The notes under the pieces: generated by a model
What the model was told of the DNA's origin: nothing
What the model saw: only the letters and a program-made list of their open reading frames with translations
Database searches by the model: none
Part shown: piece after piece, positions 881 through 43,448 of the stretch
How the letters are laid out: every line of letters begins with the position of its first letter
Position numbering within the stretch: the first letter of the stretch is position 1
Source: a virus
Direction: 5' to 3' (one strand)
Virus record (IMG/VR): IMGVR_UViG_3300044950_000601
Coordinates: 1 to 43,448 of that record
DNA: 43,448 bases
Translations under genes and position numbers: made by a program

Positions 881-958
881 ATAGGCCAACCTCATAGGCC
901 AACCTCATAGGCCAACCTCATAGGCCAACCTCATAGGCCAACCTCATAGGCCAACCTA
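881..958. repeat. Six tandem 13-bp repeats (iteron-like)
   Basis: The unit ATAGGCCAACCTC occurs six times head to tail: 881-893, 894-906, 907-919, 920-932, 933-945 and 946-958. The last copy ends in A instead of C. Each unit contains AGG-CCAA-CCT, whose outer triplets are palindromic. The array lies between the leftward gene (start at 849) and the divergent early promoter. It could be a multi-site operator for a regulator or an iteron cluster for replication initiation. The unit is about one helical turn plus 2-3 bp, so successive copies rotate around the helix. Confidence 0.95.
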
Positions 959-5814: not shown

Positions 5815-6032
5815 TGCCTTTCGACTGGATCCAATCCGTGACGGCAGACCAACTGCCGGACGCCCCTTTCCGAGTCAATCACTACACAACGGTGGTTGAC
5901 TCGGGTAAGTGGCTGGCGAAGATCCAGGAAGAAGCACGGGATGGACTGGACCACCCACGGGCAAAGCGCGGCGCACTGCAACGAGAGATCGAACGGATCC
6001 AAGACCTGACAGAAGGAAAGAACGCATGGTGA
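5814..6032 (+). CDS. Hypothetical 72-aa protein coupled to the helicase
   Basis: The ATG shares a base with the preceding stop, and its own stop lies inside the next gene. The sequence (MPFDWIQSVTADQLPDAPF...) has a helical, charged C-terminal half. No family is recognised. Its place between SSB-like and helicase genes suggests a replication accessory role. Confidence 0.65.
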   Translation: MPFDWIQSVTADQLPDAPFRVNHYTTVVDSGKWLAKIQEEARDGLDHPRAKRGALQREIERIQDLTEGKNAW

Positions 6033-7639
6033 CATTTTCAGTTAGACCTTACCAGACGGAGGCCAAGACCGCCGTGCTGGATGAATGGAGGGGAGGCCGA
6101 CAGCGCACGCTTTTGGTTCTTCCCACGGGCACGGGCAAGACTATTGTGTTTTGCCAGTTGATAGAAGAACTGGTGCGGGCCGGGAAGCGCGTGCTTATCA
6201 TGGCGCACCGTGGTGAACTGCTGGACCAGGCCGCCGACAAGCTGAGCAAGAGCACGGGCCTGGGCTGCGCGGTAGAGAAAGCCGACAGCACTTGCCTGGG
6301 TGAGTTCTACCGTGTGGTTGTGGGCTCGGTCCAGACCCTCATGCGGGAAAAGCGGCTGGCACAATTCCCGCCGAACTACTTCGACGCCATCATCGTGGAC
6401 GAAGCACACCATTGCCTGAGCGACAGTTATCAACGGGTGCTTGCTCACTTCGCGGAGGCTGATGTGCTCGGGGTGACCGCCACTCCAGACAGAGGCGACA
6501 TGAAGAACCTGGGCCAATACTTTGACTCGCTGGCCTACGAGTACTCATTACCCCGCGCCATCCGTGACGGGTATCTGTGCCCCATCAAGGCGATGACCAT
6601 CCCGCTGAAGATCGACCTTCGCGGGGTGGCTCAGCAGTCTGGCGACTTCGCGGCGGCTGGCCTGGGCTCGGCGCTGGACCCGTACCTGGAACAGATCGCC
6701 GATCAGATGGCGACCCACTGTGCCGGGCGGAAGACGGTGGTGTTCCTACCCCTGATCGCGACCTCACAGAAATTCTGCGACCTGCTGAAGGCGCGGGGCT
6801 TCCGGGCGGCTGAGGTCAACGGTGAGAGCCAGAACCGGGCGGCCATCCTCAAAGCGTTCGACGCATGGGAAGACGGGGTGCTGTGCAATTCCATGCTGCT
6901 CACGGAAGGCTGGGATTGCCCAAGCGTTGACTGCGTGGTTCCCCTTCGTCCGACCAAGATCCGCAGCCTCTTCTGCCAGATGATCGGACGCGGCACCCGG
7001 CTGTTCCCAGGCAAGACCGAACTGCTTTTGCTGGACTTCCTATGGAACACGGACCGGCTGGACCTGTGCCGTCCGGCGTGCCTCATTGCGGGATCTGAAG
7101 ACGTGGCCAAGCAGATGACGGAAACGATCAACGAGGCCGGTGCAGCGGTTGACTTGATCGAAGCCGAGGAGAAGGCCGAAGGCGACTGCGTGGCGCAACG
7201 CGAGGAAGCGCTTGCGAAGAAGCTGGCCGAAATGCGGAACCGCAAGCAGAAACTTGTGGACCCGCTTCAGTACGAAATGAGCATCGCGGCGGAAGACCTT
7301 TCCGGCTACGTGCCCAGCTTTGGGTGGGAAATGGCGCCGGTGTCGGAGCCACAAAAGGAGGCATTGGAAAAGGCCGGGCTATTTCCTGACGCGGTGGAGT
7401 GCGCTGGGAAAGCGGCACTGCTGCTGGATCGGCTCAGCAAGCGGCGGGCGGAAGGCTACACAACCCCGAGACAGATCCGCTTCTTGGAGGGGAAGAAGTT
7501 CAAGAACGTGGGAGAGTGGGAGTTCGACTACGCCAGCAAGATGATCACCCGCATTCAGGCAAACGGGTGGATCGTGCCGAAAGGCATGAACCCCGAAACG
7601 CACACCCCGGCACCGGCGCAGAGGGAGCTTGCGATATGA
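6026..7639 (+). CDS. SF2 DEAD/DEAH-box helicase, 537 aa
   Basis: The start is the ATG at 6026, which overlaps the previous stop; the frame is open further upstream but only within the preceding gene. Helicase motifs are clear: PTGTGKT (33-39), DEAH (125-128), TATP (151-154), TEGWDCPSVD and QMIGRGTR. This is the layout of phage UvsW/RecG-like or type III restriction-like SF2 helicases. A charged helical linker and a C-terminal domain (about 440-520) follow. It may remodel forks or drive branch migration before RusA resolution. A second SF2 helicase with the same core lies at 15477. Confidence 0.9.
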   Translation: MVTFSVRPYQTEAKTAVLDEWRGGRQRTLLVLPTGTGKTIVFCQLIEELVRAGKRVLIMAHRGELLDQAADKLSKSTGLGCAVEKADSTCLGEFYRVVVGSVQTLMREKRLAQFPPNYFDAIIVDEAHHCLSDSYQRVLAHFAEADVLGVTATPDRGDMKNLGQYFDSLAYEYSLPRAIRDGYLCPIKAMTIPLKIDLRGVAQQSGDFAAAGLGSALDPYLEQIADQMATHCAGRKTVVFLPLIATSQKFCDLLKARGFRAAEVNGESQNRAAILKAFDAWEDGVLCNSMLLTEGWDCPSVDCVVPLRPTKIRSLFCQMIGRGTRLFPGKTELLLLDFLWNTDRLDLCRPACLIAGSEDVAKQMTETINEAGAAVDLIEAEEKAEGDCVAQREEALAKKLAEMRNRKQKLVDPLQYEMSIAAEDLSGYVPSFGWEMAPVSEPQKEALEKAGLFPDAVECAGKAALLLDRLSKRRAEGYTTPRQIRFLEGKKFKNVGEWEFDYASKMITRIQANGWIVPKGMNPETHTPAPAQRELAI

Positions 7640-7857: not shown

Positions 7858-10340
7858 CTGACCTGCACGAAATACTCACGGCCATCGACCCAGCGCAAAC
7901 GGACTACACCGAGTGGGTAAACGTCGGCATGGCCATTAAGCACGAAGGCGGCACGGTCACGGACTGGGAGGAATGGTCCGCACGTGACAGCCAGCGATAC
8001 CACCAAGGCGAGTGCGCGAAGAAGTGGGCTGGGTTCATCGGCTCGGGCGCACCGGTAACGCTCGGCACGCTGGTGGAACTGGCCAAACGGCACGGCTGGC
8101 GACCACAGCACAACACCGGACCGAATGAGGCAATGGGCTGGGACGACGTGATCACCAAGCCGTCGGAGGCGCTTCAGTTCATCGATACGACGTGGCTGGA
8201 ACCGGTGGAACTGGACGCGCCGACCGCTGCCGACTGGAGCCCGGCCAAGGAACTGAGCAGCTATATTTCGGCCCTCTTCGAGGCCCAGGAATACGTGGGC
8301 TATGTCACGGACTCATGGATCAATGAGGACGGTAAGCATCTGCCGAAGAAAGGCAGCTTCACCAGGACGGCGGGCGAGTTGCTTCAGGACCTGGCCAAGT
8401 ACGGCGATGACCTCAGCTATACCGTGGGAAGCTGTGAACCTGAGTGCGGGGCGTGGATCCGGTTCAACCCGCTGGACGGCAAAGGGGTGCGGGACGACAA
8501 TGTAACCGCATTCCGCTATGCGCTGGTGGAGTCGGACACCCTGGCCGTTGACAAGCAAGCCGCCATTTATGCCGAGCTTGAATTACCCATTGCGGCGCTG
8601 GTTCATTCGGGTGGCAAGTCGCTGCACGCCATCGTGCGAATTAACGCCACATCCAAGGAGGAATACCGGGAGCGGGTGAACTTCCTGCACAAGGTCTGCC
8701 AGAAGAACGGCCTGGAGATCGACACGCAGAACAAGAACCCGAGCCGCCTGTCTCGGATGCCGGGTGTTCTACGGAATGGCCACAAGCAGTATCTGGTGGC
8801 TGTCAACCAGGGCAAGGACTCGTGGGAAGCGTGGAAGGAGTTCGTGGAGGAAGCGAACGACAACCTGCCGGACTTCGAGGCGCTGGACAGCATATTCGAC
8901 AACCTGCCGGACCTGGCCGCGCCCCTGATCGATGGTGTACTGCGCCAGGGCCACAAGGGGCTGCTGACCGGACCGTCGAAGGCGGGAAAGTCTTACATGC
9001 TGCTGCAACTCACCCTCGCCATTGCCGAGGGCCGTGAATGGCTGGGCTGGCCGTGTGCCCAAGGCCGGGTGCTCTATGTAAACCTGGAGCTTGACCGGGC
9101 CTCATGCCTGCACCGTATTAAAGACCTCTACGACAAGCTGGGGTGGGCACCTTCGAACGTGGCGAACATCGACCTCTGGAACCTGCGGGGCAAGGCGGTA
9201 CCGATGGACACCTTGGCACCGAAGCTGATACGCCGGGCACACAAGCGAGGATACAAGGCGATCATCATTGACCCCATTTACAAGGTCATAACCGGGGACG
9301 AAAACGCGGCTGACAAGATGGCGTTCTTCTGCAACCAGTTCGACCGGGTATGCGCTGAGCTTGGTGCAGCCGTCATTTACTGCCATCACCACAGCAAAGG
9401 CGCACAGGGCCAGAAGTCGGCGCGGGATCGTTCTTCTGGCTCGGGGGTATTCGCGCGAGACCCTGACGCCATTCTCGACATCATTGAACTGAACGTAACT
9501 GACACCATGCGGAAGGCCGTCACGGACCGGAAGATCGCCGACGAAGTGGCCAACTTCCTGGACGAATACCGGCCCCAGTGGCGCGATGACCTGTCCCAGG
9601 ATGACGCCGTGATCTCCGACAAGGTGCTCGCCTATGGCCGGGACAAGTTAGGGCCAGCGCTAGAGCAGCACCTTACACCCCTTCGGAAGACGCTGGAGCA
9701 GATGACCGGCTGGCGAATGGAAGGCACCTTGCGCGAGTTCGCACCCATGGCCCCGCGCTGCTTCTGGTTCCGGCACCCGTTCCACACCATGGACCAAGCG
9801 GACACCCTTGGGGATGCCAAGGCGGAAGGTGAGGAACCGCAGTGGAAGGCCCAGGCCGACGCCGACAAGGAAGCACGCAAGGCACGCCGGGAGCAGGACA
9901 TCAAGCGGCTGTCGGAGGCGTTCATGGGGCCGCACTTCGAACACGGCTTCGCGGAACTGGCCAACCTCGCGAGCACCATGAACCTGGATGAAAAGCGGGT
10001 GAAGGCATTACTGCCAGCCGCCAACCTGATCCAGTGTGTGGACGGCAAGATCCGGCCCAAAGAAGAAGGCGAAGAGTTCAACGAAGCCAACCCAAAGACG
10101 AAGGAAAAGAAGCCGTCCAAGGCGGAAGATGACTGGTCTGAGAAGCTCGCCAGGACGCGAAGGGCCATCATGAAAGCAGCCGCGCAGGCACCGGACGGCA
10201 TTGCCAGGATCGGCACGGTGACCGAAATTCTGGCGCTTCCTGGGAAGAACCCGATCAACACTGTGCGCAATTGGGTCAAGCAATGCGACGAATACCGACG
10301 CAATGAAGACGGCACCATAACGCCCGTGGAGGGTGAATAA
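7854..10340 (+). CDS. PrimPol-helicase replication protein, 828 aa
   Basis: Three regions are visible. Residues 1-85 resemble a PriCT-2 domain (YTEWVNVGMAIKH, GWRP). Residues about 190-320 look like an archaeo-eukaryotic primase core, with motif I E226-S-D228, motif II S256-L-H258 in GGKSLHAIVRI, and motif III near D290. Residues 355-560 are a RepA-type hexameric helicase (AAA_25): Walker A GPSKAGKSY (373-381), Walker B IIIDP (470-474) and CHHHSKG (510-516). The C-terminal 200 residues are charged, with possible DNA-binding helices. Such fusions prime and unwind at a phage origin. Catalytic assignments are by eye. Confidence 0.85.
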   Translation: MTDLHEILTAIDPAQTDYTEWVNVGMAIKHEGGTVTDWEEWSARDSQRYHQGECAKKWAGFIGSGAPVTLGTLVELAKRHGWRPQHNTGPNEAMGWDDVITKPSEALQFIDTTWLEPVELDAPTAADWSPAKELSSYISALFEAQEYVGYVTDSWINEDGKHLPKKGSFTRTAGELLQDLAKYGDDLSYTVGSCEPECGAWIRFNPLDGKGVRDDNVTAFRYALVESDTLAVDKQAAIYAELELPIAALVHSGGKSLHAIVRINATSKEEYRERVNFLHKVCQKNGLEIDTQNKNPSRLSRMPGVLRNGHKQYLVAVNQGKDSWEAWKEFVEEANDNLPDFEALDSIFDNLPDLAAPLIDGVLRQGHKGLLTGPSKAGKSYMLLQLTLAIAEGREWLGWPCAQGRVLYVNLELDRASCLHRIKDLYDKLGWAPSNVANIDLWNLRGKAVPMDTLAPKLIRRAHKRGYKAIIIDPIYKVITGDENAADKMAFFCNQFDRVCAELGAAVIYCHHHSKGAQGQKSARDRSSGSGVFARDPDAILDIIELNVTDTMRKAVTDRKIADEVANFLDEYRPQWRDDLSQDDAVISDKVLAYGRDKLGPALEQHLTPLRKTLEQMTGWRMEGTLREFAPMAPRCFWFRHPFHTMDQADTLGDAKAEGEEPQWKAQADADKEARKARREQDIKRLSEAFMGPHFEHGFAELANLASTMNLDEKRVKALLPAANLIQCVDGKIRPKEEGEEFNEANPKTKEKKPSKAEDDWSEKLARTRRAIMKAAAQAPDGIARIGTVTEILALPGKNPINTVRNWVKQCDEYRRNEDGTITPVEGE

Positions 10341-10720
10341 TGCAGTTCTTCCTACCCATGGAACCACCCACGACGACGGCGCAGATGCACAAAGTAACCG
10401 TCCGAAATGGCAAGCCGGTGTTCTACGACCCCCCAGCGGTGAAGGAAATGAAGGCCAAACTTGCCGCACACTTGTGCGCACATAAGCCGGAAGAACCCAT
10501 GCTCGGGCCGCTGCGCCTGGTGTGCCACTGGGTATGGCAGAGCAAAACCGAGTCATACAAACCGACGAAACCCGACACCGACAATATACAGAAGGCACTC
10601 AAGGACGTTATGGGTTTGTGTCGGTTTTGGTTGGACGATGCGCAGGTATGCGACGAGCGCTGTATCAAGTCTTACGGCCTGGTGCCGGGTATCTTCATCA
10701 AGATCGAGGAACTGTCATGA
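10340..10720 (+). CDS. rusA: RusA-family Holliday junction resolvase, 126 aa
   Basis: The protein carries the RusA pattern KPDTDNIQKALKDVM followed by WLDDAQVC. The three acidic residues and the Lys match the metal-binding catalytic set of RusA. Length fits the family (about 120 aa). It would cut four-way junctions made during recombination-linked replication. It overlaps the end of the replicase gene. The GATC cluster begins at its stop codon. Confidence 0.92.
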   Translation: MQFFLPMEPPTTTAQMHKVTVRNGKPVFYDPPAVKEMKAKLAAHLCAHKPEEPMLGPLRLVCHWVWQSKTESYKPTKPDTDNIQKALKDVMGLCRFWLDDAQVCDERCIKSYGLVPGIFIKIEELS

Positions 10721-11034
10721 GGGGATCAACAAACAAACTGATCCCTGTTTTTCAGTTGTCAGTTGATCCCCTCTGGGGGGGATCAGGATCAGTTCACGCT
10801 TCCCCCCCACACCCCCATATACATATGTACATGCTGTTGATCCCGATCCCCACCCTGCAAGCACTATCGCGTGATCTGTGTGCGGATGGTAAGTGGGGGT
10901 CGTACCTCCCCCACACTTCCCACCACCGGGTCCCCCTCGCAAGCGAGTACCCAGGGCTTCCGTCCGCCACCCTGATCCGCACTGCAAGTGCAAACCGCAA
11001 AACCGAAACCAACGAAGGAAAGACGAAAGCATGA
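10717..11034 (+). CDS. Doubtful 105-aa frame across the GATC cluster
   Basis: The frame begins with an ATGA overlap on rusA and ends with an ATGA overlap on the ParB-Dam gene, which is the genome's usual coupling pattern. Its composition is odd (runs of Pro, His and Ser such as HASPPHPHIHMYM), no domain is visible, and the DNA is dominated by repeats. I think it is more likely noncoding, but the overlaps at both ends keep it open. Confidence 0.25.
   Translation: MRGSTNKLIPVFQLSVDPLWGGSGSVHASPPHPHIHMYMLLIPIPTLQALSRDLCADGKWGSYLPHTSHHRVPLASEYPGLPSATLIRTASANRKTETNEGKTKA
10720..10980. promoter_or_regulatory. GATC-dense repeat region, candidate origin or Dam-controlled switch
   Basis: Nine GATC sites lie at 10724, 10740, 10765, 10781, 10787, 10839, 10845, 10873 and 10974, eight of them within 153 bp. 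The motif GTTGATCCC recurs: 10762-10772 and 10836-10844 forward, and as AGGGGATCAAC at 10720-10730, a perfect 11-bp inverted partner of 10762-10772. G-runs and C-runs flank an AT-rich stretch (10816-10832) that contains the palindrome TACATATGTA. The region lies between replication genes and a gene with a Dam-type domain. E. coli oriC is the classic GATC-rich parallel. Confidence 0.6.
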
Positions 11035-12098
11035 ACGTCACAGCAACCAAGTTCGAAATACACCCGGTGGCCAACATCTTCCCGGCAATGTCCGATCAGG
11101 CGTTCCGTGAACTGGTGGCCGACATCGAGGCCAACGGACAGCGTGAACCGATCTGGCTGGACACCGAAGGCCGAGTGATCGACGGGCGGCATCGGGTGAG
11201 GGCTTGCGACTTGCTGGAGCGGGAAGTGCTCACGGAAACCTACGAGGGCGACGATCCCCTGGGCTTCGCGGTATCGCACAACCTGCATCGGAACCACTAC
11301 AGCGAATCGCAGCGGGCCATGGTAGCCGCCAAGCTGGCGAACATGGGAGAGGGAAGACCATCGCAAGAAACTGCCTCAATTGAAGCAGTTTCCCAGTCAC
11401 GGGCGGCTGAGCAGTTGAACGTCTCACGCAGCAACGTCCAGCGCGCCACCAAGGTGATCGCCGAAGCTGAGCCCGAAATTACCCAAGCAGTGGAGCAAGG
11501 CCGTCTCGCGGTTTCTGCCGCTGTCACTGCCACAGAATTTCCGCCCGAGGTGCAGCGCGAAATTGCAGCAGCCCCGGAGCCAGCGAAGGCCATCAAGGCA
11601 CACGTGGCCAACAATAGCGGCAACAACGAGTGGTACACCCCCGCTAAGTTCATCGAGGCAGCACGCGAGGCCATGGGGAGCATTGACACCGATCCCGCTT
11701 CGTGTGAGTTCGCCAACCGCACGGTAAAGGCCGACACGTTTTACACCTTCGAAAATGACGGACTGGCGCACGCTTGGGCAGGTAATGTCTGGCTCAACCC
11801 GCCTTATTGCCAGCCGCTGATCACGCAATTCTGTGAAGCAGTCACGGCAAAGTACTCGGATGGCGAGATCTCGCAGGCCATTGTGTTGGTGAACAACGCA
11901 ACCGAAACGGCCTTCTTCCAGCGCATGACAGAAGAGGCAACCGCCATATGCTTACCGAAGGGCCGAATTCGTTACATCAACCAGGCTGGCGAGTTGGCCC
12001 TTACCCCACTTCAGGGGCAAGCGTTTCTCTACTTCGGGGAAGAGTGGATGCGCTTCAAGGAAGTATTCAGCCAGTTCGGCAAGGTTGTTTTCTGCTAA
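11031..12098 (+). CDS. ParB-like / Dam-type adenine methyltransferase fusion, 355 aa
   Basis: The ATG at 11031 follows GAAGGAAAGACGAAAGC. Residues 1-110 form a ParB/sulfiredoxin-like domain with the box VIDGRHRVRA (49-58). Residues about 122-145 look like a helix-turn-helix (SRAAEQLNVSRSNVQRA). Residues 195-355 match phage N6-adenine methyltransferase (Dam, PF05869): NNEWYTP (198-204) and the catalytic-type VWLNPPY (253-259). This family is expected to methylate GATC. The fusion could bring methylation to specific sites, and the adjacent GATC cluster is the obvious candidate. It might also protect phage DNA from restriction. Confidence 0.85.
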   Translation: MNVTATKFEIHPVANIFPAMSDQAFRELVADIEANGQREPIWLDTEGRVIDGRHRVRACDLLEREVLTETYEGDDPLGFAVSHNLHRNHYSESQRAMVAAKLANMGEGRPSQETASIEAVSQSRAAEQLNVSRSNVQRATKVIAEAEPEITQAVEQGRLAVSAAVTATEFPPEVQREIAAAPEPAKAIKAHVANNSGNNEWYTPAKFIEAAREAMGSIDTDPASCEFANRTVKADTFYTFENDGLAHAWAGNVWLNPPYCQPLITQFCEAVTAKYSDGEISQAIVLVNNATETAFFQRMTEEATAICLPKGRIRYINQAGELALTPLQGQAFLYFGEEWMRFKEVFSQFGKVVFC

Positions 12099-12122: not shown

Positions 12123-12443
12123 ATGCAAGCACCCACCAAAACCCGGCGGAAGAACTGCCAGCATTGCGGAAACGGCTTCAAGGCGGTGTCGAACCTACAG
12201 AAGTACTGCGGGAAGGAATGCGCTTACGGATCAGAACTGAGGAAGATGCGCAACAGAAGCGCTGAGGAACAGCGGAAGAACCTCGCATCGCTGAAGCACG
12301 TCACAGCAGCCAAGCCCAAGCCATTGCGCCGAGCCTCTTCCCTGGCGGAGACACCGGACATACCAGCGCAGGGCATTGACCGAGGCGAGCAACTGACCGG
12401 GGCTTGCTCTGCGACGGTACAGGCGGACGGACCATGCCGGTAG
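12123..12443 (+). CDS. Small zinc-finger protein, 106 aa
   Basis: I prefer the ATG at 12123 over 12108 because GGAGAAG lies just before it. The N-terminus carries CQHC...YCGKEC, a four-Cys finger seen in many phage proteins near HNH genes. A basic helical region (ELRKMRNRSAEEQRKN) follows, then a low-complexity tail. It probably binds nucleic acid. It overlaps the HNH gene by 10 nt. Confidence 0.7.
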   Translation: MQAPTKTRRKNCQHCGNGFKAVSNLQKYCGKECAYGSELRKMRNRSAEEQRKNLASLKHVTAAKPKPLRRASSLAETPDIPAQGIDRGEQLTGACSATVQADGPCR

Positions 12444-12799
12444 CATCACCAAAGCCCTGCGCCAAACGTGGATGCCCGAGCCTGGTGCAACGTGGCGCAC
12501 GCTTCTGCCAGGACCACACACGGGTGCCCAGGCGGACACCACGCCCAGAAGGCGCCATAGTCTACGGCGGCAGATGGCAGGCAGAATCCCGAGCCTTCCT
12601 ACAGCTACCCGGCAACGCATGGTGCAGGGAATGCGGTGCTATGGCCCGAGAGGTGGACCACATCGAACCGCACAAGAACGACGAGGCTTTGTTCTGGGAC
12701 CAAGCCAACTGGCAACCACTGTGCAAGCCATGTCACAGCAGTAAGACCGCTCGCGAGGACGGTGGCTTTGGCAATCAGAAACGCGAGAAAAAGGAATGA
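12434..12799 (+). CDS. HNH endonuclease, 121 aa
   Basis: An N-terminal Cys/His region (CAKRGCPSLVQRGARFCQDH) precedes a classic HNH core: WCRECG, then VDHIEPHK, then NWQPLCKPCHSSKTARE. CxxC pairs flank the His and Asn residues. HNH proteins beside terminase genes are required for packaging cleavage in several HK97-like phages (for example HK97 gp74). The next gene but one is the small terminase, so a packaging role is likely. Confidence 0.9.
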   Translation: MPVASPKPCAKRGCPSLVQRGARFCQDHTRVPRRTPRPEGAIVYGGRWQAESRAFLQLPGNAWCRECGAMAREVDHIEPHKNDEALFWDQANWQPLCKPCHSSKTAREDGGFGNQKREKKE

Positions 12800-12966
12800 A
12801 AAGAAAATGCGCAAAACTGCTCAAAGCCCCGGAGGGGGGAGGGGGGTTGAAATCCTTCGACCCGAGGCACAGCCGAGCATGCCGTCCGTCTGGCGCTTGT
12901 GGGATGGGGATTCTGACTAGGAAAATTCTGCCTACCTGTGGGGTGGGCGCAACTTGGAGGTTTTAG
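12796..12966 (+). CDS. Doubtful 56-aa frame before the small terminase
   Basis: It starts with ATGA on the HNH stop and ends just before the terS ribosome site. A second frame (12807-12920, 37 aa) overlaps it. Neither shows a domain. The DNA contains a long G-run at about 12832-12847 that makes any reading frame glycine-rich. I keep it only because the stop-start overlap follows the local pattern. Confidence 0.2.
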   Translation: MKRKCAKLLKAPEGGGGLKSFDPRHSRACRPSGACGMGILTRKILPTCGVGATWRF

Positions 12967-12968
12967 GT

Positions 12969-13268
12969 ATGAAGGTTCCGGCGGCCCCGAGCGGGTTGAG
13001 TGCTGAGGCAAAAAAGCTTTGGGTGAAGATCTTGATGGAAATGGGGGGCTGGGAGGAGTCGCAGTTGTGGATTGTGCGGACGGGGCTGGAGCAGTGGGAC
13101 CTGATGCAGCAGGCGCGGGCAAGGGTGAAGAAGGATGGCCAGATGGTGGCGGACAGGTTTGGCCAGATGAAGCTGCACCCGCTGTTGTCGGTGATTCGGG
13201 ACAATGCGGCGGGGGTTCGGCAGACCTACAAGCTGCTGGGATTGGATTTCATGGAGGCTGACGAGTAG
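12969..13268 (+). CDS. terS: Terminase small subunit, P27 family, 99 aa
   Basis: The ATG at 12969 has GGAGG at 12956-12960. The sequence LSAEAKKLWVKILMEMGGWEES...LHPLLSVIRDNAAGVRQTYKLLGLDF is typical of P27-type small terminases, including the conserved HPLL...R segment and the C-terminal LGLDF. The family is usually 110-150 aa, so the N-terminus is short. It binds the packaging site and recruits the large subunit. The stop overlaps the large-subunit GTG. Confidence 0.88.
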   Translation: MKVPAAPSGLSAEAKKLWVKILMEMGGWEESQLWIVRTGLEQWDLMQQARARVKKDGQMVADRFGQMKLHPLLSVIRDNAAGVRQTYKLLGLDFMEADE

Positions 13269-15382
13269 TGCCTCGCGTTCGCAAGAACCCTCGACGAGGG
13301 CGCCGGGTGTCGGGCGGGATAACGCTGTACCAGCGGGCGTATCTGCTGACGGGCATGAGCTACGACTTCCTGGTGGGGGACCGGGACGTAGTGGGGCGTC
13401 CGTTTGCCGATGGTGACGCGGTTCGGGTGGCCTGGGCCTCGCATTCGGCCCTGGTTGAGGGGGATTGTGCCTATGGTGCGGCGCCCTGGGCCCGGTTTGT
13501 GTGCGAAAGCAAGGCAAAAACGTGGGGTTTGCGGTGCAAATATGCCCTGAAAAAGACGTATTTGGGGGGATTTTTCGAGCATGAATGGGTGTGTGAGTAC
13601 GTCAAAAGCGCGGTTGAGCATGTGGATTGGGCCGAAATTCGGGCCTCGGTGAAGTTCGATTGGCGCTGGATCCGCACCTGGAACGACGTGGAAGCGGTGA
13701 AAAGAGGGTGCTATTTCGACGAAAACGCGGGGTTTTATGCCGTTGGTTTCTTCCGATTGCTGCGCCATTGCGTTGGCGAGTGGGCCGGGAAGCCCTTCGA
13801 GCCGCTGAACTGGCAGAAGTTCGATCTCTTGATGCCGTTGTTTGGGTGGATGCGGAAGTCGGGCACCAGGCGCTTCAGGAAGGCGCATGTGGAGATCCCG
13901 AAGAAGAACGGGAAGAGCATGATCTGCTCGGGGCTGAGTCTGAAGCTGGCCATCGCGGATCGGGAGGCGAGCGCGGAGGTGTACAACGCGGCAGGCGAGA
14001 AAGAGCAGGCCGAGATCGTCTTTGGTGAGGCTGAGAAGATGGCCAAGGCGAGTCCGTTCCTGGAGGGGCGTATCAAGTGGACCCCGAGCCGGAAGCGCGG
14101 GGAGCATTTACCCAGCGGGAGCACGTACCGGGCGCTGTCGAAAGAGCACAAGAACAAAGACGGCTACAAAACATCGGGGTTGGTGATCGACGAGCTTCAC
14201 ATGCAGCAGGATCGGAAACTTTGGGACGTGCTGATCTACGGTGGCCGGACGCGGCGCCAACCCATGTTCATTTCCATCACCACGGCAGGCGAGTACGACC
14301 CCCACGGGATTGGCTGGGAGCAGCACACGTACGCCAGGCGGCTGCTGAGTGGCGACGGTGGCATTGGGCGAGACCCGTACTTCTTTGCCTATATCCGCAG
14401 CGTGCCGGAAGAGTTGAAAGAGCGATGGATGGAGCCTGACCTGTGGTATCGGGCGAACCCCAACCTCGGGGTAACGATTGATTTTGAGCAGTTCGAAGCG
14501 GAGGCCCAGGAAGCCTTGAACATGCCGAGCAAGGTAAGCAGCTTCCAGCGGTACAGCCTGAATATCTGGGTGCGGACGAGGGAGGCTGCGTTCAAGATTG
14601 AGAAGTGGAATTCGAGGGCGGTGCAGGGTGATGGGTTGGAGCGGGTGAGGATGGTGGAGGAACTGGCCCAGGGGCGGAGGTGCTTTGGCGGGCTGGACCT
14701 TGCGGCGGTGAACGATTTGAGTGCGGCGGCGCTGTGGTTCCCACCCAACAACTATGAGGTGAGTCTGGAGTCTGGAGGGGAGAGTCTGGAGGAAGGGGAA
14801 GAGGAAGCCGACCTGCTTAAGGCTTACTCGATTGACGATTGCCATTTGCTGCTGACTTGGTTCTGGTTGCCGGTGGAGAACATCGGGGATCTGGAGAAGC
14901 AGCACAACGCGCCCTACAGCCAGTGGGCGGATGAGGGTTGGCTGAACCTGACGCCGGGTGAGGTGGCGGACTACAAGACGATCCGGCGCGACCTGGTGGA
15001 GATTCACCGGCGCTTCGAGCCGGAGCGGTGGAACTATGACAAGTGGAGCGCGGCGCAGTTGGTGAGCGACTTGATCGAGTATGACGATCTGCCGATGGTT
15101 GAGTTTGGCCAGGGCTTTGGGTGGATGAATGCGCCGACGAAGGAGTTCGAAAGGCTGATGATCCAGGAGCGGATCATCCATGCGGCGCATCCGACGATGG
15201 ACTGGATGGTGGGCAATTGCCAGATGGTTGCCGATGGCGAGGGCAAGGTGAAGCTGGTGAAGCAGGGGAAGAAGATTGCCTACAAGATTGACGGGCCGAT
15301 TGCCGCCGTGGAGGCGCTGGACGGGGCTGTGCGGTGCGCGGCTGGGGTGGTTCTTACAGGAAGTTCGGTTTATGTAGGTTGA
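13268..15382 (+). CDS. terL: Terminase large subunit, 704 aa
   Basis: The GTG start shares a base with the terS stop. Residues 1-110 are an extension rich in basic and aromatic residues. Beyond it the Terminase_1 pattern is clear: CYFDENAG...FFRLLRHCVGEWAGKPF, Walker A PKKNGKS (211-217), Walker B SGLVIDELH (303-311), motif III SITTAGE and the nuclease Asp in GGLDLAAVNDLSA (near 477). At about 498-512 the protein has an acidic insert (SLESGGESLEEGEEE) encoded by heptamer repeats. It is the packaging motor and nuclease. Confidence 0.92.
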   Translation: MPRVRKNPRRGRRVSGGITLYQRAYLLTGMSYDFLVGDRDVVGRPFADGDAVRVAWASHSALVEGDCAYGAAPWARFVCESKAKTWGLRCKYALKKTYLGGFFEHEWVCEYVKSAVEHVDWAEIRASVKFDWRWIRTWNDVEAVKRGCYFDENAGFYAVGFFRLLRHCVGEWAGKPFEPLNWQKFDLLMPLFGWMRKSGTRRFRKAHVEIPKKNGKSMICSGLSLKLAIADREASAEVYNAAGEKEQAEIVFGEAEKMAKASPFLEGRIKWTPSRKRGEHLPSGSTYRALSKEHKNKDGYKTSGLVIDELHMQQDRKLWDVLIYGGRTRRQPMFISITTAGEYDPHGIGWEQHTYARRLLSGDGGIGRDPYFFAYIRSVPEELKERWMEPDLWYRANPNLGVTIDFEQFEAEAQEALNMPSKVSSFQRYSLNIWVRTREAAFKIEKWNSRAVQGDGLERVRMVEELAQGRRCFGGLDLAAVNDLSAAALWFPPNNYEVSLESGGESLEEGEEEADLLKAYSIDDCHLLLTWFWLPVENIGDLEKQHNAPYSQWADEGWLNLTPGEVADYKTIRRDLVEIHRRFEPERWNYDKWSAAQLVSDLIEYDDLPMVEFGQGFGWMNAPTKEFERLMIQERIIHAAHPTMDWMVGNCQMVADGEGKVKLVKQGKKIAYKIDGPIAAVEALDGAVRCAAGVVLTGSSVYVG
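14762..14796 (+). repeat. AGTCTGG heptamer array inside terL
   Basis: The units AGTCTGG, AGTCTGG, AGGGGAG, AGTCTGG and AGGAAGG run in tandem within the coding sequence. The same heptamer is intergenic at 23974, 24900 and 25378. It encodes an acidic loop between the ATPase and later nuclease segments. Confidence 0.85.
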
Positions 15383-15476: not shown

Positions 15477-17405
15477 ATGAAAGCAGAGCAGTATGATAGC
15501 CGGTTTGGTCCGGCGGGTTCGTTGAAGTTGTGGCCCTATCAAGCACGGGATGTTATTGCGATCCGGTCCGCATTCTGGTCGCACTCCTGGGTGCTTTACT
15601 CCCTTTCGACTGGAGCGGGCAAGACGGTGATGTTTTGTCACCTTCTGCGGGAATGGATGTTTGCCGATCTGCGGGTCTGTGTTGTGGTGAACAGCAGGCA
15701 CCTGGTTGACCAGACCAGCGCGGCGCTGGGTGATGTGCCTCACGGCATCATTCGCGGAGGTGTTAAGCCTGAGCCAGAATACTCTGTGCAGGTGGCGACC
15801 GTGCAGGCACTCGCGGCGCGGCCAGCCGAGAACCGCTTTGATGTGTATATCGTCGATGAAGCGCACCATGCGGCGGCGGCTAGCTATCAGAAAGTATTGA
15901 GCGGAGCCAAGCACGTGCTTGGGTTGACCGCAACACCCTTCCGAAAAGATGGGATTGGGATTGGTTCGGCAGGTTTCACGACCCTGATTCAAGGGCCTGG
16001 AATTGCCGAATTGACCCCCGAGTACCTGAGCGAGGCTGAATTGTATGGCCCATCCAACGACACCCCAAAAGTAGACCTAAAGGGCATCAAGAAGGACAAT
16101 GGTGATTTTGTTGCTGGCGAAGAACTTGCGGGGCGTGTCAACCAGAAGACCATCACGGGGAGCGCGGTGGACCATTACATCAAGCGGGCGAACGGAAGCC
16201 GGGCGCTGGTTTACTGCGTGACCCGCAAGCACGCGCGCGACGTTGCCAGGGCCTTTGGTCGGGCGGGCATTGCCACGGCGTACCTTGATGGCACGATGGG
16301 GGACACGCAACGGCGTGACGTGTTGAATGCGCTGCGTGATGGCCGGATGAAGGTGGTTGTTTCCTGTGAGCTTATCGGTGAGGGGCTGGACGTTCCATCC
16401 GTCGGCTGCGTGATCCTGCTTCGGCCCACTCAGTCACTCCGGGTATTGATGCAGCAGGTGGGCCGTGGTTTGCGCAAGACAGCACTGCCCGGTAGCAAGA
16501 TCGTAGTACTCGATCATGTCGGCAACTTCGAGCGCAACGGCTGGTATCCCATGGACGCACTGAGCTACAGCCTTGAGGGCAAGGCGAGGAATATGCGCGA
16601 GGGCGAGCGGCGCGGGGTGCGGCAATGCTCGGCCTGCGGTCGGATCGCCGGGGACGGCAGATCTGGCTGTGAGGCTTGTGGGCGGGCGATGCTGGAACCA
16701 GTGGAGGTTAATGGGGAGTTGGTGCGACTTGGGCCGGTGAACCTGGTTTGGTGGTCTGGAAATTATCGGACATCGAAAGTAATAAATGGAAAATCAATAA
16801 TTGTAACTCTTGGTAGAGATCGCGTGAAGGCGCAAGCGGGGATTGATGCGGCAAATGCCCGCTGGGAAGCGGAAGGCGGATGGCCTGATACCGAGGAAGA
16901 TTTTAGAAAATGGTTAGAAGTTGGCCCGAAACGCGAAATGAATCCATTGCGTCTTTCGGTACCTAAAACAAGAAAATGCTCGACCCACAAGAACATCTGC
17001 GGCAAAGATTTAACAATTTACCTTGGTTCCGATCCTATAAAGGCTCAGGCGCGTGTGGACGCGGCCAACGCGCGATGGGAGGCGGCGGGGCGCGTGTGGC
17101 CGGACACGGAAGAAGAGATCAGGGAATGGCTTGGCGTGGGCCCCAAAACAGGAAAGGCACCACTGAACCTAAGCATCACCGCACGAGGATGGTGTAATTC
17201 ATCCAAAAATATAGGAGGGAAAAACATAAATGTTTTGATCGGGTCCGATCCAATAAAGGCGCAAGCGGCGATTGATGCTGCGAACGCGCGATGGGAAGCA
17301 GCGGGCCGCGTGTGGCCGACGACAGAGAACGAATTTAGATCATGGCTTGGTGTGGGACCCAAGCGTAAGTCATTCAAGGACACGAGCAAAAGCGGGAAGG
17401 ACTGA
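15477..17405 (+). CDS. SF2 helicase with zinc ribbon and three AP2-like repeats, 642 aa
   Basis: The helicase core has STGAGKT (44-50), DEAH (127-130), TATP (151-154), a GEGLDVPSV segment near 301 and QQVGRGLR near 326, paralogous to the helicase at 6026. A zinc ribbon follows (C384, C387, C398, C401). Three C-terminal modules of about 60 aa then share KAQA..DAANARWEA at residues 451, 522 and 593, a constant 71-aa step. Each has the strand-strand-helix look of AP2/integrase-type DNA-binding domains. AT-rich and GC-rich segments alternate within the repeats, suggesting recent duplication or transfer. The gene interrupts the terminase-portal order. Confidence 0.85.
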   Translation: MKAEQYDSRFGPAGSLKLWPYQARDVIAIRSAFWSHSWVLYSLSTGAGKTVMFCHLLREWMFADLRVCVVVNSRHLVDQTSAALGDVPHGIIRGGVKPEPEYSVQVATVQALAARPAENRFDVYIVDEAHHAAAASYQKVLSGAKHVLGLTATPFRKDGIGIGSAGFTTLIQGPGIAELTPEYLSEAELYGPSNDTPKVDLKGIKKDNGDFVAGEELAGRVNQKTITGSAVDHYIKRANGSRALVYCVTRKHARDVARAFGRAGIATAYLDGTMGDTQRRDVLNALRDGRMKVVVSCELIGEGLDVPSVGCVILLRPTQSLRVLMQQVGRGLRKTALPGSKIVVLDHVGNFERNGWYPMDALSYSLEGKARNMREGERRGVRQCSACGRIAGDGRSGCEACGRAMLEPVEVNGELVRLGPVNLVWWSGNYRTSKVINGKSIIVTLGRDRVKAQAGIDAANARWEAEGGWPDTEEDFRKWLEVGPKREMNPLRLSVPKTRKCSTHKNICGKDLTIYLGSDPIKAQARVDAANARWEAAGRVWPDTEEEIREWLGVGPKTGKAPLNLSITARGWCNSSKNIGGKNINVLIGSDPIKAQAAIDAANARWEAAGRVWPTTENEFRSWLGVGPKRKSFKDTSKSGKD

Positions 17406-40507: not shown

Positions 40508-41017
40508 ATGGGTGCTAATAGATTTCTGAAGCGGGTGACGTTACGCAAGGCCGCATCGACCGGGGTGACCTTCCTCGGGCTGTTCGTCGCGGGCATGGCG
40601 ACGGTGGACATACCGACCGACCCATCGGCGCTGGACAAGGCGCTCCCGGCCATCGGTATCGCTGTGGCGGGCGCTGCGTGGCGGGCGTATCGGAACATGC
40701 GGAAGAACAGCGACAAGGCGGGGAACCCGCTGGCCGGGCCGAACGTGCCGAGCGGGTACGCGCTCGCGGTGGCTGGCCTCGCTGCCACGCTGGCGGGCTG
40801 TGTGACGACGACGGCGCCGGACGGGACTACGACCACGGGACTGGACCCGGTGGCGCTGGAGACTGCGTGGGCCACGTGGGAACGGTACGAAGCCCGGCGC
40901 GTGGAACTGGAGCGGCAGAAGCGTGAGGCCGACGCGGAGGAACGCGCCCGGCTGGAGGCTGAGTTACGCAGACTGGAACCGGAGATCGTGCGGCTGGCGG
41001 AGCGGCTGGGGCTGTAG
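40508..41017 (+). CDS. Membrane protein with internal lipobox (holin/spanin-like chimera), 169 aa
   Basis: GGAGACTGAT precedes the ATG. Hydrophobic spans lie near residues 18-34 and 47-60, and a third (82-97, YALAVAGLAATLAGC) ends in a lipobox-like LAGC at C98. The last 60 residues are a charged coiled coil (ERYEARRVELERQKREAD). The tail looks like an outer-membrane spanin and the front like a holin. An internal GTG at 40745 could start a free lipoprotein but lacks a clear ribosome site. Confidence 0.62.
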   Translation: MGANRFLKRVTLRKAASTGVTFLGLFVAGMATVDIPTDPSALDKALPAIGIAVAGAAWRAYRNMRKNSDKAGNPLAGPNVPSGYALAVAGLAATLAGCVTTTAPDGTTTTGLDPVALETAWATWERYEARRVELERQKREADAEERARLEAELRRLEPEIVRLAERLGL

Positions 41018-41018
41018 G

Positions 41019-41060
41019 CAAATACTAATTTGGTATGAATTAGTATGAAATTAGTATTTG
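41019..41060. repeat. AT-rich 13-bp perfect inverted repeat
   Basis: CAAATACTAATTT (41019-41031) is the exact reverse complement of AAATTAGTATTTG (41048-41060). The 16-nt spacer holds another ATTAGTAT copy. It lies in an AT-rich island between lysis genes and the 41104 promoter. It could be an operator or an integrase arm-type site. Confidence 0.85.
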
Positions 41061-41061
41061 A

Positions 41062-41090
41062 CCCGGCTGGGCAACTGGCCGGGAATTTTT
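41062..41090 (+). terminator. Intrinsic terminator of the late operon
   Basis: CCCGGC (41062-41067) pairs with GCCGGG (41078-41083), followed by AATTTTTATTT. It ends the lysis transcript just before the strong promoter. Confidence 0.8.
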
Positions 41091-41911: not shown

Positions 41912-41953
41912 AATAAGGCCATTCCGGCAGCAGATCGCGGGAATGGCCTTATT
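41912..41953. terminator. Bidirectional-type terminator
   Basis: AATAAGGCCATTCC (41912-41925) and GGAATGGCCTTATT (41940-41953) form a perfect 14-bp stem with a 14-nt loop. AT-rich flanks (TTATT on both strands) let it act for the 41177-41897 operon and for leftward transcription from int. Confidence 0.8.
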
Positions 41954-41967
41954 TATTGGGGTTTTGA

Positions 41968-42041: not shown

Positions 42042-43175
42042 TTACGTTTCAGTTGGGCGAAAGTTGGGCGGAAAGAGATCGAAGTATGCGCGTCCGTCGG
42101 CTTCGGTGGCCAGCGTCCGATAGGTGGAATACAGCAGCGCTGGGCTGTGGTGACCCAGTTCGTGGGCGGTCAGGGTGGCATTCCGATGGGCGGCGAGGTG
42201 GTACGAGGCGAACGAGTGCCGCATGGCGTTCCTGGGCCAGGCGAAGCCATTCAGTGCCTTGGTGATCTCGGCTGTCCGCTTGCGGTGGTTGGTCTGGCGT
42301 AGCACACTCGTTGCCGGGTAGGACTGGAGCCACGCGGCGAGGTTGGCCGGGATGCTGAGGTATCTTTGCTGCCCGGTCTTGGCCTGAGCGGGGCCGATGT
42401 GGAGGCAATCAGGTTGCCAGCAGTCGGCGGTCCAGCGGTCGAGCTCTGCGGTCCTGGCCCCGGTGAAGAAGCCCACGGCGAAGTACGGGAGCAGGGCGGG
42501 ATCGGACTGGGCCACGGCTCCGAGGAACAGCCGCACGGACGCCACGGGCAGGCACACGGGGGCTTCTCTGCGCACGGAGGCCGCGGGGATGGGGTCAACC
42601 GGGTTGGTGGCACACATGCCCTCACGCATGGCCCAGGCGAAGAACGCTGCCAGGGTGCGGCGGTATCCGTTCCACGAGTTCCCCCTATACCCACAGCAGA
42701 CGAGCCACGCCTTGATCTGGTCGGTGGTGACCTCGTGGCAGTGCAGGGTCTGTTCTTCCCCGGAGTCGCGGAGGAACTTGCCCACGTGGTCCCGGTATCC
42801 TTCGGCGGTGCGCTCCCTGCGGTCAAGGGCGGTCTTCTCGGCTTGGATGTCTATCAGGGCGTCACGCACGAGCACGGGCCGGACGGGCCTTTCCTGGGCC
42901 TGCACGAGGGCGCGGGCGGCATCGGTGAGGGTCTTCCCCGGTGGCAGCAGGTTGAGTGCCTCGCGGGCGTCGGCAAGCTGGAGCACGGTGAGGGGGACGG
43001 TGCGGCGTTCGCGGTCAAGTTGGCGCCGGTCTATCTCGCCCTGGGCCTGGGCTTCGGTTGGGTAGATCTTGCGGAAGCGCTTGCCGTCGGTCCACAGCGT
43101 GCAGAGCCACGTGCCGTGGGGTGTCGGCGTGATGTGGCCCCCGTTGTAGGCGCGCGGCTTGGGCTTGCGGGCCAT
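42042..43175 (-). CDS. int: Tyrosine integrase, 377 aa
   Basis: The N-terminal 100 residues hold an arm-binding-like domain (GGHITPTPHGTWLCTLWTDGKRFRKIYPT). A SAM-like core-binding domain follows to about 200. Catalytic residues seen: R241 (TGARTAEL), K266 (AKTGQQRY), R319-H320 (AMRHSFASY, with Asn where a first His is often found), H342 (LGHHS) and Tyr352 (YSTYR). Start ATG overlaps the lipoprotein stop (TAATG). It directs integration at the adjacent tRNA-Val attP. Confidence 0.95.
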   Translation of the reverse strand: MARKPKPRAYNGGHITPTPHGTWLCTLWTDGKRFRKIYPTEAQAQGEIDRRQLDRERRTVPLTVLQLADAREALNLLPPGKTLTDAARALVQAQERPVRPVLVRDALIDIQAEKTALDRRERTAEGYRDHVGKFLRDSGEEQTLHCHEVTTDQIKAWLVCCGYRGNSWNGYRRTLAAFFAWAMREGMCATNPVDPIPAASVRREAPVCLPVASVRLFLGAVAQSDPALLPYFAVGFFTGARTAELDRWTADCWQPDCLHIGPAQAKTGQQRYLSIPANLAAWLQSYPATSVLRQTNHRKRTAEITKALNGFAWPRNAMRHSFASYHLAAHRNATLTAHELGHHSPALLYSTYRTLATEADGRAYFDLFPPNFRPTET

Positions 43176-43448
43176 TAGAACCCGCCAGGCTTCCAGGATG
43201 TTCCTTCATAGGACGAAAATCGAGCAGTGCCCACAACCAGAGCCAAGTCAGGCCCAGGGGATGGGCCGAAGATGGTCAGCTTATATGGCCAATTCTTATC
43301 GGCACCGGGCAGCACATACACAGCATTGCGCATGGCGAGGACTGCCTTTTCCGCATACGCACCGACGCTTGCTGTGGGCGCGGATGGCATATCAACACGG
43401 GCGAAGATGTACCCATGCTCATTCAACCCTACCTCGCTTGGGACATTG
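43175..43448 (-). CDS. Lipoprotein next to integrase, 3' part
   Basis: This is the C-terminal part of the junction-spanning gene that begins at 264. It reads on from 43448, contains GLNEHGYIFARVDMPSAPTA and AEKAVLAMRNAVYVLPGADK, and ends ...SYEGTSWKPGGF with its TAA at 43175-43177. The whole protein is 134 aa. Taken alone from its internal Met at 43426 it would be read wrongly as an 83-aa protein without a lipobox. Confidence 0.88.
   Translation of the reverse strand, partial: NVPSEVGLNEHGYIFARVDMPSAPTASVGAYAEKAVLAMRNAVYVLPGADKNWPYKLTIFGPSPGPDLALVVGTARFSSYEGTSWKPGGF
43316..43448. repeat. Terminal direct repeat, right copy
   Basis: Matches 1-133 except A at 43322 for G at 7. Joining the two ends closes the genome and restores the lipoprotein reading frame. 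Confidence 0.95.

Follow-up and report, generated by a model that had tools for sequence, protein, structure and literature searches.

A tandem inverted-repeat element with clustered GATC sites precedes a ParB–Dam fusion gene in a temperate tailed phage

Results

We analysed the whole virus record IMGVR_UViG_3300044950_000601 (43,448 bp, 60% GC; hereafter the window). The record is complete and carries a 133-bp terminal overlap (1-133 versus 43316-43448, 99%). The presence of integrase, capsid, portal, tape-measure and endolysin genes identifies the phage as temperate and tailed; a tRNA search found none. The replication block encodes a Sak4-like protein, a helicase, a primase, RusA and a ParB–Dam fusion, and is followed by genes for an HNH endonuclease and the small and large terminase subunits (Table 1). 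The RusA gene, whose stop codon overlaps an ATGA, is the 5′ neighbour of the 310-bp gap that separates it from the fusion gene.

Several other features of the genome can be recorded here. A second helicase gene (15477-17405) follows the large terminase; it belongs to phrog_16, as does the helicase at 5909-7639 (mutual identity ~29%), and has internal repeats at 16818-17362 that are spaced by ~216 bp and roughly 70-78% alike. Heptanucleotide tandem repeats of the types GTCTGGA, GAATTAT and GAAGGGT, several with repeated GGAG/GAAGG Shine-Dalgarno-like cores, occur mostly among the structural genes (at 14755, 23967, 24591, 24784, 24893, 25371, 28225 and 32707). Perfect inverted repeats of at least 12 bp at 41019-41062 and 41912-41955, in gaps near the integrase gene, are candidate attachment-site or terminator structures.

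Table 1. Features of the locus and of the rest of the window
Feature	Position	Strand	Details
Six 13-bp tandem repeats ATAGGCCAACCTC	881-958		adjoins AT-rich stretch (41% GC)
RusA-like Holliday junction resolvase gene	10340-10720	+	PF05866, E=1.9e-22; phrog_140
Open frame of the gap, 105 codons	10717-11034	+	ATGA overlaps with RusA and fusion genes; weak coding signal
Dyad/hairpin 1	10719-10773		12-bp perfect arms GAGGGGATCAAC (10719-10730) / GTTGATCCCCTC (10762-10773); inner AACTGA/TCAGTT pairing
YTGATCCC copies	10722, 10738, 10763, 10779, 10837	-, +, +, -, +	
Dyad/hairpin 2	10774-10809		TGGGGGGGA / TCCCCCCCA, with TCAGGATCAG in loop
Imperfect 18-bp palindrome CATATACATATGTACATG	10816-10833		one of six of such quality in genome
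Possible closed RNA domain	10880-10982	+	outer pair GTGCGGAT / ATCCGCAC, inner hairpins; alone z=-1.8, weak
ParB–Dam fusion gene	11031-12098	+	PF05869; ParB part by PDB profile and fold
HNH endonuclease gene	12434-12799	+	PF01844
Small terminase gene, Terminase_4 family	12954-13268	+	PF05119
Large terminase gene	13268-15382	+	PF03354, PF20441, phrog_9
Integrase gene	42042-43175		

The gene downstream of the gap had been predicted to join a ParB-like domain to a Dam-type methyltransferase, and profile and fold matches bear this out. The 355-aa product has an N-terminal ParB part (CTPase fold plus helix-turn-helix, HTH) and a C-terminal Dam-type adenine methyltransferase. Profile comparison with PDB matches residues 1-180 to Spo0J, Noc, ParB and KorB (best E value of 1.2e-9, for Noc/Spo0J/ParB chains), and the predicted structure of this half, including the DNA-binding HTH region, matches 1vz0 (E=1.6e-6); the ParB/Srx CTPase fold with a DGRxRxRA-type box is present. 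The structure model has a mean pLDDT of 82 and a pTM of 0.49, which leaves the arrangement of the domains uncertain. No ParA-type match was found among the main genes scanned, and none of the palindromes of the genome could be assigned as parS.

The C-terminal half matches PF05869 at residues 198-324 (E=2.3e-14), and its catalytic NPPY (N256 P257 P258 Y259) is invariant in 23 homologues. It aligns with phage T1 Dam with a profile probability of 97.8%, and scores 42.8 bits against TIGR01712, under the cut-off of 97.05. By analogy with M.Phi93DAM, a phage enzyme described as having NPPY as its sole conserved motif and which methylates GATC according to SMRT sequencing and DpnI/DpnII digestion (PMC4190342), GATC specificity of the fusion is plausible. 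A single specificity is, however, not to be assumed for all PF05869 relatives, as some contigs that carry a relative of the domain have no or almost no GATC in 13-19 kb. In low-GC virus contigs with a Dam-domain relative we counted 0 sites in L041 (1-13334), 0 in L042 (1-19021), 3 in L038 and 5 in L043; such strong avoidance would be odd if their enzyme protects GATC.

The original prediction drew attention to the density of GATC in the gap, and its counts are correct: nine sites (starting at 10724, 10740, 10765, 10781, 10787, 10839, 10845, 10873 and 10974) lie within 254 bp (10724-10977), eight of them within exactly 153 bp. A tenth, at 10702, is within RusA. The background of one site per 256 bp assumed at that time does not describe this genome, which has one per 154 bp (283 sites versus 179 in dinucleotide shuffles); GATC is among its over-represented palindromes (observed/Markov-expected 1.22). 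Counting by windows confirmed that the cluster is dense, but another 250-bp window, starting at ~30151 in the tape-measure coding sequence, also has nine sites. When the 283 sites were placed at random, eight in 153 bp were reached in 23 of 2000 trials (1.2%), nine in 180 bp in 8 of 2000 (0.4%) and nine in 260 bp in 94 of 2000 (4.7%). Given these frequencies, the richness of the genome in GATC and the second nine-site window, the clustering alone is only modestly significant. In addition, inverted repeats count GATC twice, because the site is self-complementary: 10724 mirrors 10765, and 10781 and 10787 mirror 10839 and 10845. The sites are thus mutually dependent, and the weight of the cluster had been overstated.

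These numbers raise the question of whether the cluster is simply a local excess, without function, in a GATC-rich genome, as the 1.2% of random placements and the window in the tape-measure gene could suggest. Chance, however, leaves unexplained the repeat motif and the fold described below, and we regard it as quite unlikely. The true anomaly is not the density of GATC but the concentration of YTGATCCC, which forms a strong tandem hairpin/dyad. Five of the six copies of YTGATCCC in the genome fall within 125 bp (10722-10844), and GTTGATCCC occurs three times here (10722 on the minus strand, 10762 and 10836 on the plus strand) and is absent from the rest of the genome. The perfect inverted pair originally given as 11 bp is present and has in fact arms of 12 bp (GAGGGGATCAAC / GTTGATCCCCTC); the dyad that it forms begins right at the stop codon of RusA. 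In the rest of the genome just two places, both near 41-42 kb, have a pair of perfect 12-bp arms within 60 bp. The palindrome that had been noticed in an AT-rich stretch is there as well, but the AT-rich part is just the 18 bp of CATATACATATGTACATG, in a gap of 56% GC. We considered this palindrome as a ParB site and dropped it, as five others of equal quality occur in the genome.

The region of the two tandem hairpins (10716-10812), folded as RNA of the plus strand, is far more stable than its shuffles (z=-6.1), and the whole gap gives z=-4.5; the flanking coding stretches give z=+0.3 and +0.5. Together with the motif concentration and the dyads, the fold supports the presence of a non-random repeat element directly upstream of the fusion gene. 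The hairpins are followed on the 3′ side by an A-rich unstructured stretch suited to ribosome loading. It is conceivable that the element works only in the mRNA, through its hairpins, as a structured leader or a processing element, with GATC as a by-product, and both the folding scores and the A-rich stretch would fit such a role. However, the opposite strand of 10716-10812 folds about equally well (z=-5.7), so that an RNA structure is indistinguishable from a DNA dyad; Rfam gave no match at gathering level, and no covariation is possible for an RNA element here. We consider a purely RNA-borne function rather improbable. A match to Rfam ar15 was rejected as weak (E=0.11, 19.7 bits versus 40). 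No sigma-70 promoter or terminator was matched in the gap.

The gap may, alternatively, be a small translationally coupled gene of 105 codons, in which case the GATC cluster would be incidental. Its frame has ATGA overlaps at both ends and AGGA 5′ of the start, stays open by chance in 4.8% of shuffles (0.048), and has the best codon score among the six frames. On the other hand, this score is weak at z=1.7; most small genes of the phage reach 2.5 to 8.4 (RusA, 5.5; TerS, 5.9), although a genuine gene, HNH, has just 1.3. Third-position GC is flat (0.57/0.52/0.59), the frame has no family match or homologue (a gap-ORF search of virus contigs matched this virus only), and the stretch holds strong inverted repeats. 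A coding gap is therefore unlikely in our estimate, yet it deserves to be kept in mind.

Conservation of the cluster in relatives carrying the fusion had been named in advance as a test that could refute the prediction. Relatives of the fusion were found in 39 further virus contigs and in four genome contigs, the four being distant. In the 28 with a usable upstream region, 39 GATC sites were seen upstream of the gene versus 36.6 expected, which is background, and the maximum in 153 bp was three. This result speaks against a general mechanism; all 28 lack the RusA-gap-fusion gene order, and no close relative with that order was available. Searches of virus contigs with the fusion, primase and RusA proteins, each of which has relatives, returned this order from none but an identical contig, and a terminase search returned only this virus. 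When virus contigs were scanned with a 10-bp dyad-arm pattern, the only matches apart from this virus were two unrelated ones due to chance. In four contigs with a relative (L006-L009) a small frame that, read by eye, resembles a Cro-type protein precedes the fusion. The leader element is real and, in the available data, unique to this phage.

The cluster had also been proposed as a methylation-controlled replication origin, of the SeqA/oriC or iteron type. The repeats do adjoin replication genes (helicase, primase and RusA). However, the minimum of the cumulative GC skew is at the start of the record, away from the cluster; around the site the skew is positive, falling to about zero at the site itself, with no negative-to-positive switch near 10.7 kb. 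No DnaA box was found in the whole record, the gap at 56% GC is not AT-rich, and the six 13-bp iterons with an AT-rich stretch at 881-1100 are more plausible as an origin or control region. On these grounds an origin in the gap is highly improbable. The ATAGGCCAACCTC repeats sit between divergent reading frames (region ~850-1110), and the array at 881-958 is likely an operator array or a replication origin.

We also compared the cluster with the pac site of phage P1, which has seven TGATCA/G in 161 bp (PMC10028697). In a site of this kind, a spacer lies between TGATC hexamers, and cutting by the terminase is licensed by Dam methylation. Eight of the nine sites in the gap read TGATC[C/T] (10722-10977), seven of them at 10722-10877, and the layout is five sites, a ~50 bp spacer and three sites, spanning ~155 bp; a Dam-type enzyme is encoded by the phage itself, and the terminase operon lies 2 kb downstream. 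The terminases, however, are of the Terminase_4 and TerL_ATPase/TerL_nuclease families, not PacA/PacB. An HNH gene beside a Terminase_4-type small subunit and a large terminase of this class usually means cos packaging, and the HNH-TerS-TerL arrangement accordingly points to cos, with the HNH-TerS gap (12800-12953) as its expected location. Two other contigs of the same virus (G001 and G002) break in that gap, at 12878-12886; the breaks may mark a physical end (cos), and strain variation could also explain them. Attractive as the parallel with P1 is, a packaging site in the cluster is very unlikely. G001 and G002 come from other metagenomes and also break near-identically at 40820-40969, and the first 16 bases of G002 have no match to the record.

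Discussion

The reading that we favour, with a probability of roughly 40%, takes the cluster as a cis-regulatory leader of the ParB–Dam gene, specific to this phage and acting as operator and/or attenuator. The leader would be a tandem inverted repeat with half-sites YTGATCC(C), and the GATC excess would be largely a by-product of these half-sites. An HTH protein might bind the dyads and repress or tune the gene; the simplest candidate would be the fusion itself, in the manner of KorB, a transcriptional repressor. Alternatively, the hairpins may act in the mRNA to control the fusion gene. More speculatively, methylation of GATC in the half-sites could alter binding, and so close a feedback loop.

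The regulatory reading is favoured by the five of six YTGATCCC copies, the 12-bp perfect dyad and the fold (z=-6.1), by the location of the element between the RusA stop and the fusion start, by the alignment of the N-terminal half of the fusion, DNA-binding domain included, with Spo0J, Noc and KorB, and by the relatedness of the C-terminal half to T1 Dam, with the precedent of M.Phi93DAM. It is weakened by the gap matching neither a sigma-70 promoter nor a terminator, by the lack of upstream GATC enrichment in the 28 relatives, and by the chance that the gap is coding, given its 105-codon frame with an ATGA overlap on either side. No virus but this one was found to carry the element, so conservation lends the proposed function no support. 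A further point against it is that the dyads here are spaced, whereas canonical ParB sites form contiguous palindromes. Of what was first proposed, the fusion with its DNA-binding half, its Dam-type family and the upstream repeat element are supported; the origin and a general mechanism are not.

A more ambitious version would make a single protein both reader and writer: the ParB-HTH half would load at the YTGATCCC dyads of its own leader and the Dam half would methylate the GATC within them, so that the methylation state, reset at each replication, would time either the expression of the protein itself or the change-over to packaging. We regard this as a long shot; if true, a single phage gene would serve as an epigenetic timer. 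ParB-fold/methyltransferase fusions are common in phages, and the leader, whose unusual repeats include the presumed methylation target, offers one concrete candidate for a site on which such a protein acts. Should the fusion prove to bind the leader as well as methylate it, this would be a compact case of a phage using methylation for timing; otherwise the leader would be a local control element or a small gene.

Several known systems resemble parts of this locus. The dense GATC recalls E. coli oriC and SeqA; here, in contrast, there are no DnaA boxes, no AT-rich unwinding region and no SeqA among the matched families. In P1 pac, TGATC hexamers are likewise clustered within ~160 bp, and P1 too encodes a Dam, but the hexamer here is TGATCC rather than TGATCA/G, the terminase is of another class, and the cluster is 2 kb from the small terminase gene. 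KorB, Noc and Spo0J share with the N-terminal half of the fusion the CTPase fold and the HTH DNA-binding domain, whereas their C-terminal dimerisation domain is replaced in the fusion by the methyltransferase; no ParA was identified among the main genes scanned, and no parS could be assigned. T1 Dam and M.Phi93DAM have the same Dam-type domain with NPPY, but both are stand-alone enzymes, to which the fusion is a distant relative.

On plasmids, the N-terminal ParB module of the fusion occurs in proteins annotated as ParB-domain proteins and in one annotated as an MT-A70 family methyltransferase (NZ_CP140896.1, 12583-13053); the latter annotation suggests that the module is swapped between methyltransferase types. 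The fusion belongs to a known class of ParB–methyltransferase proteins. In the parts of the literature available to us, phages as well as mobile elements are described to carry fusions of the ParB CTPase fold to methyltransferases (PMC12704722; Bce_0392 in PMC5512222), and none such with PF05869 Dam and a known cognate GATC cluster is mentioned there. As far as these sources go, the known phage proteins likewise join a ParB-type NTPase domain to a DNA methyltransferase; their partners are PF01555, PF13489, MT-A70 or SAM-dependent methyltransferases, whereas the partner here is a PF05869 Dam.
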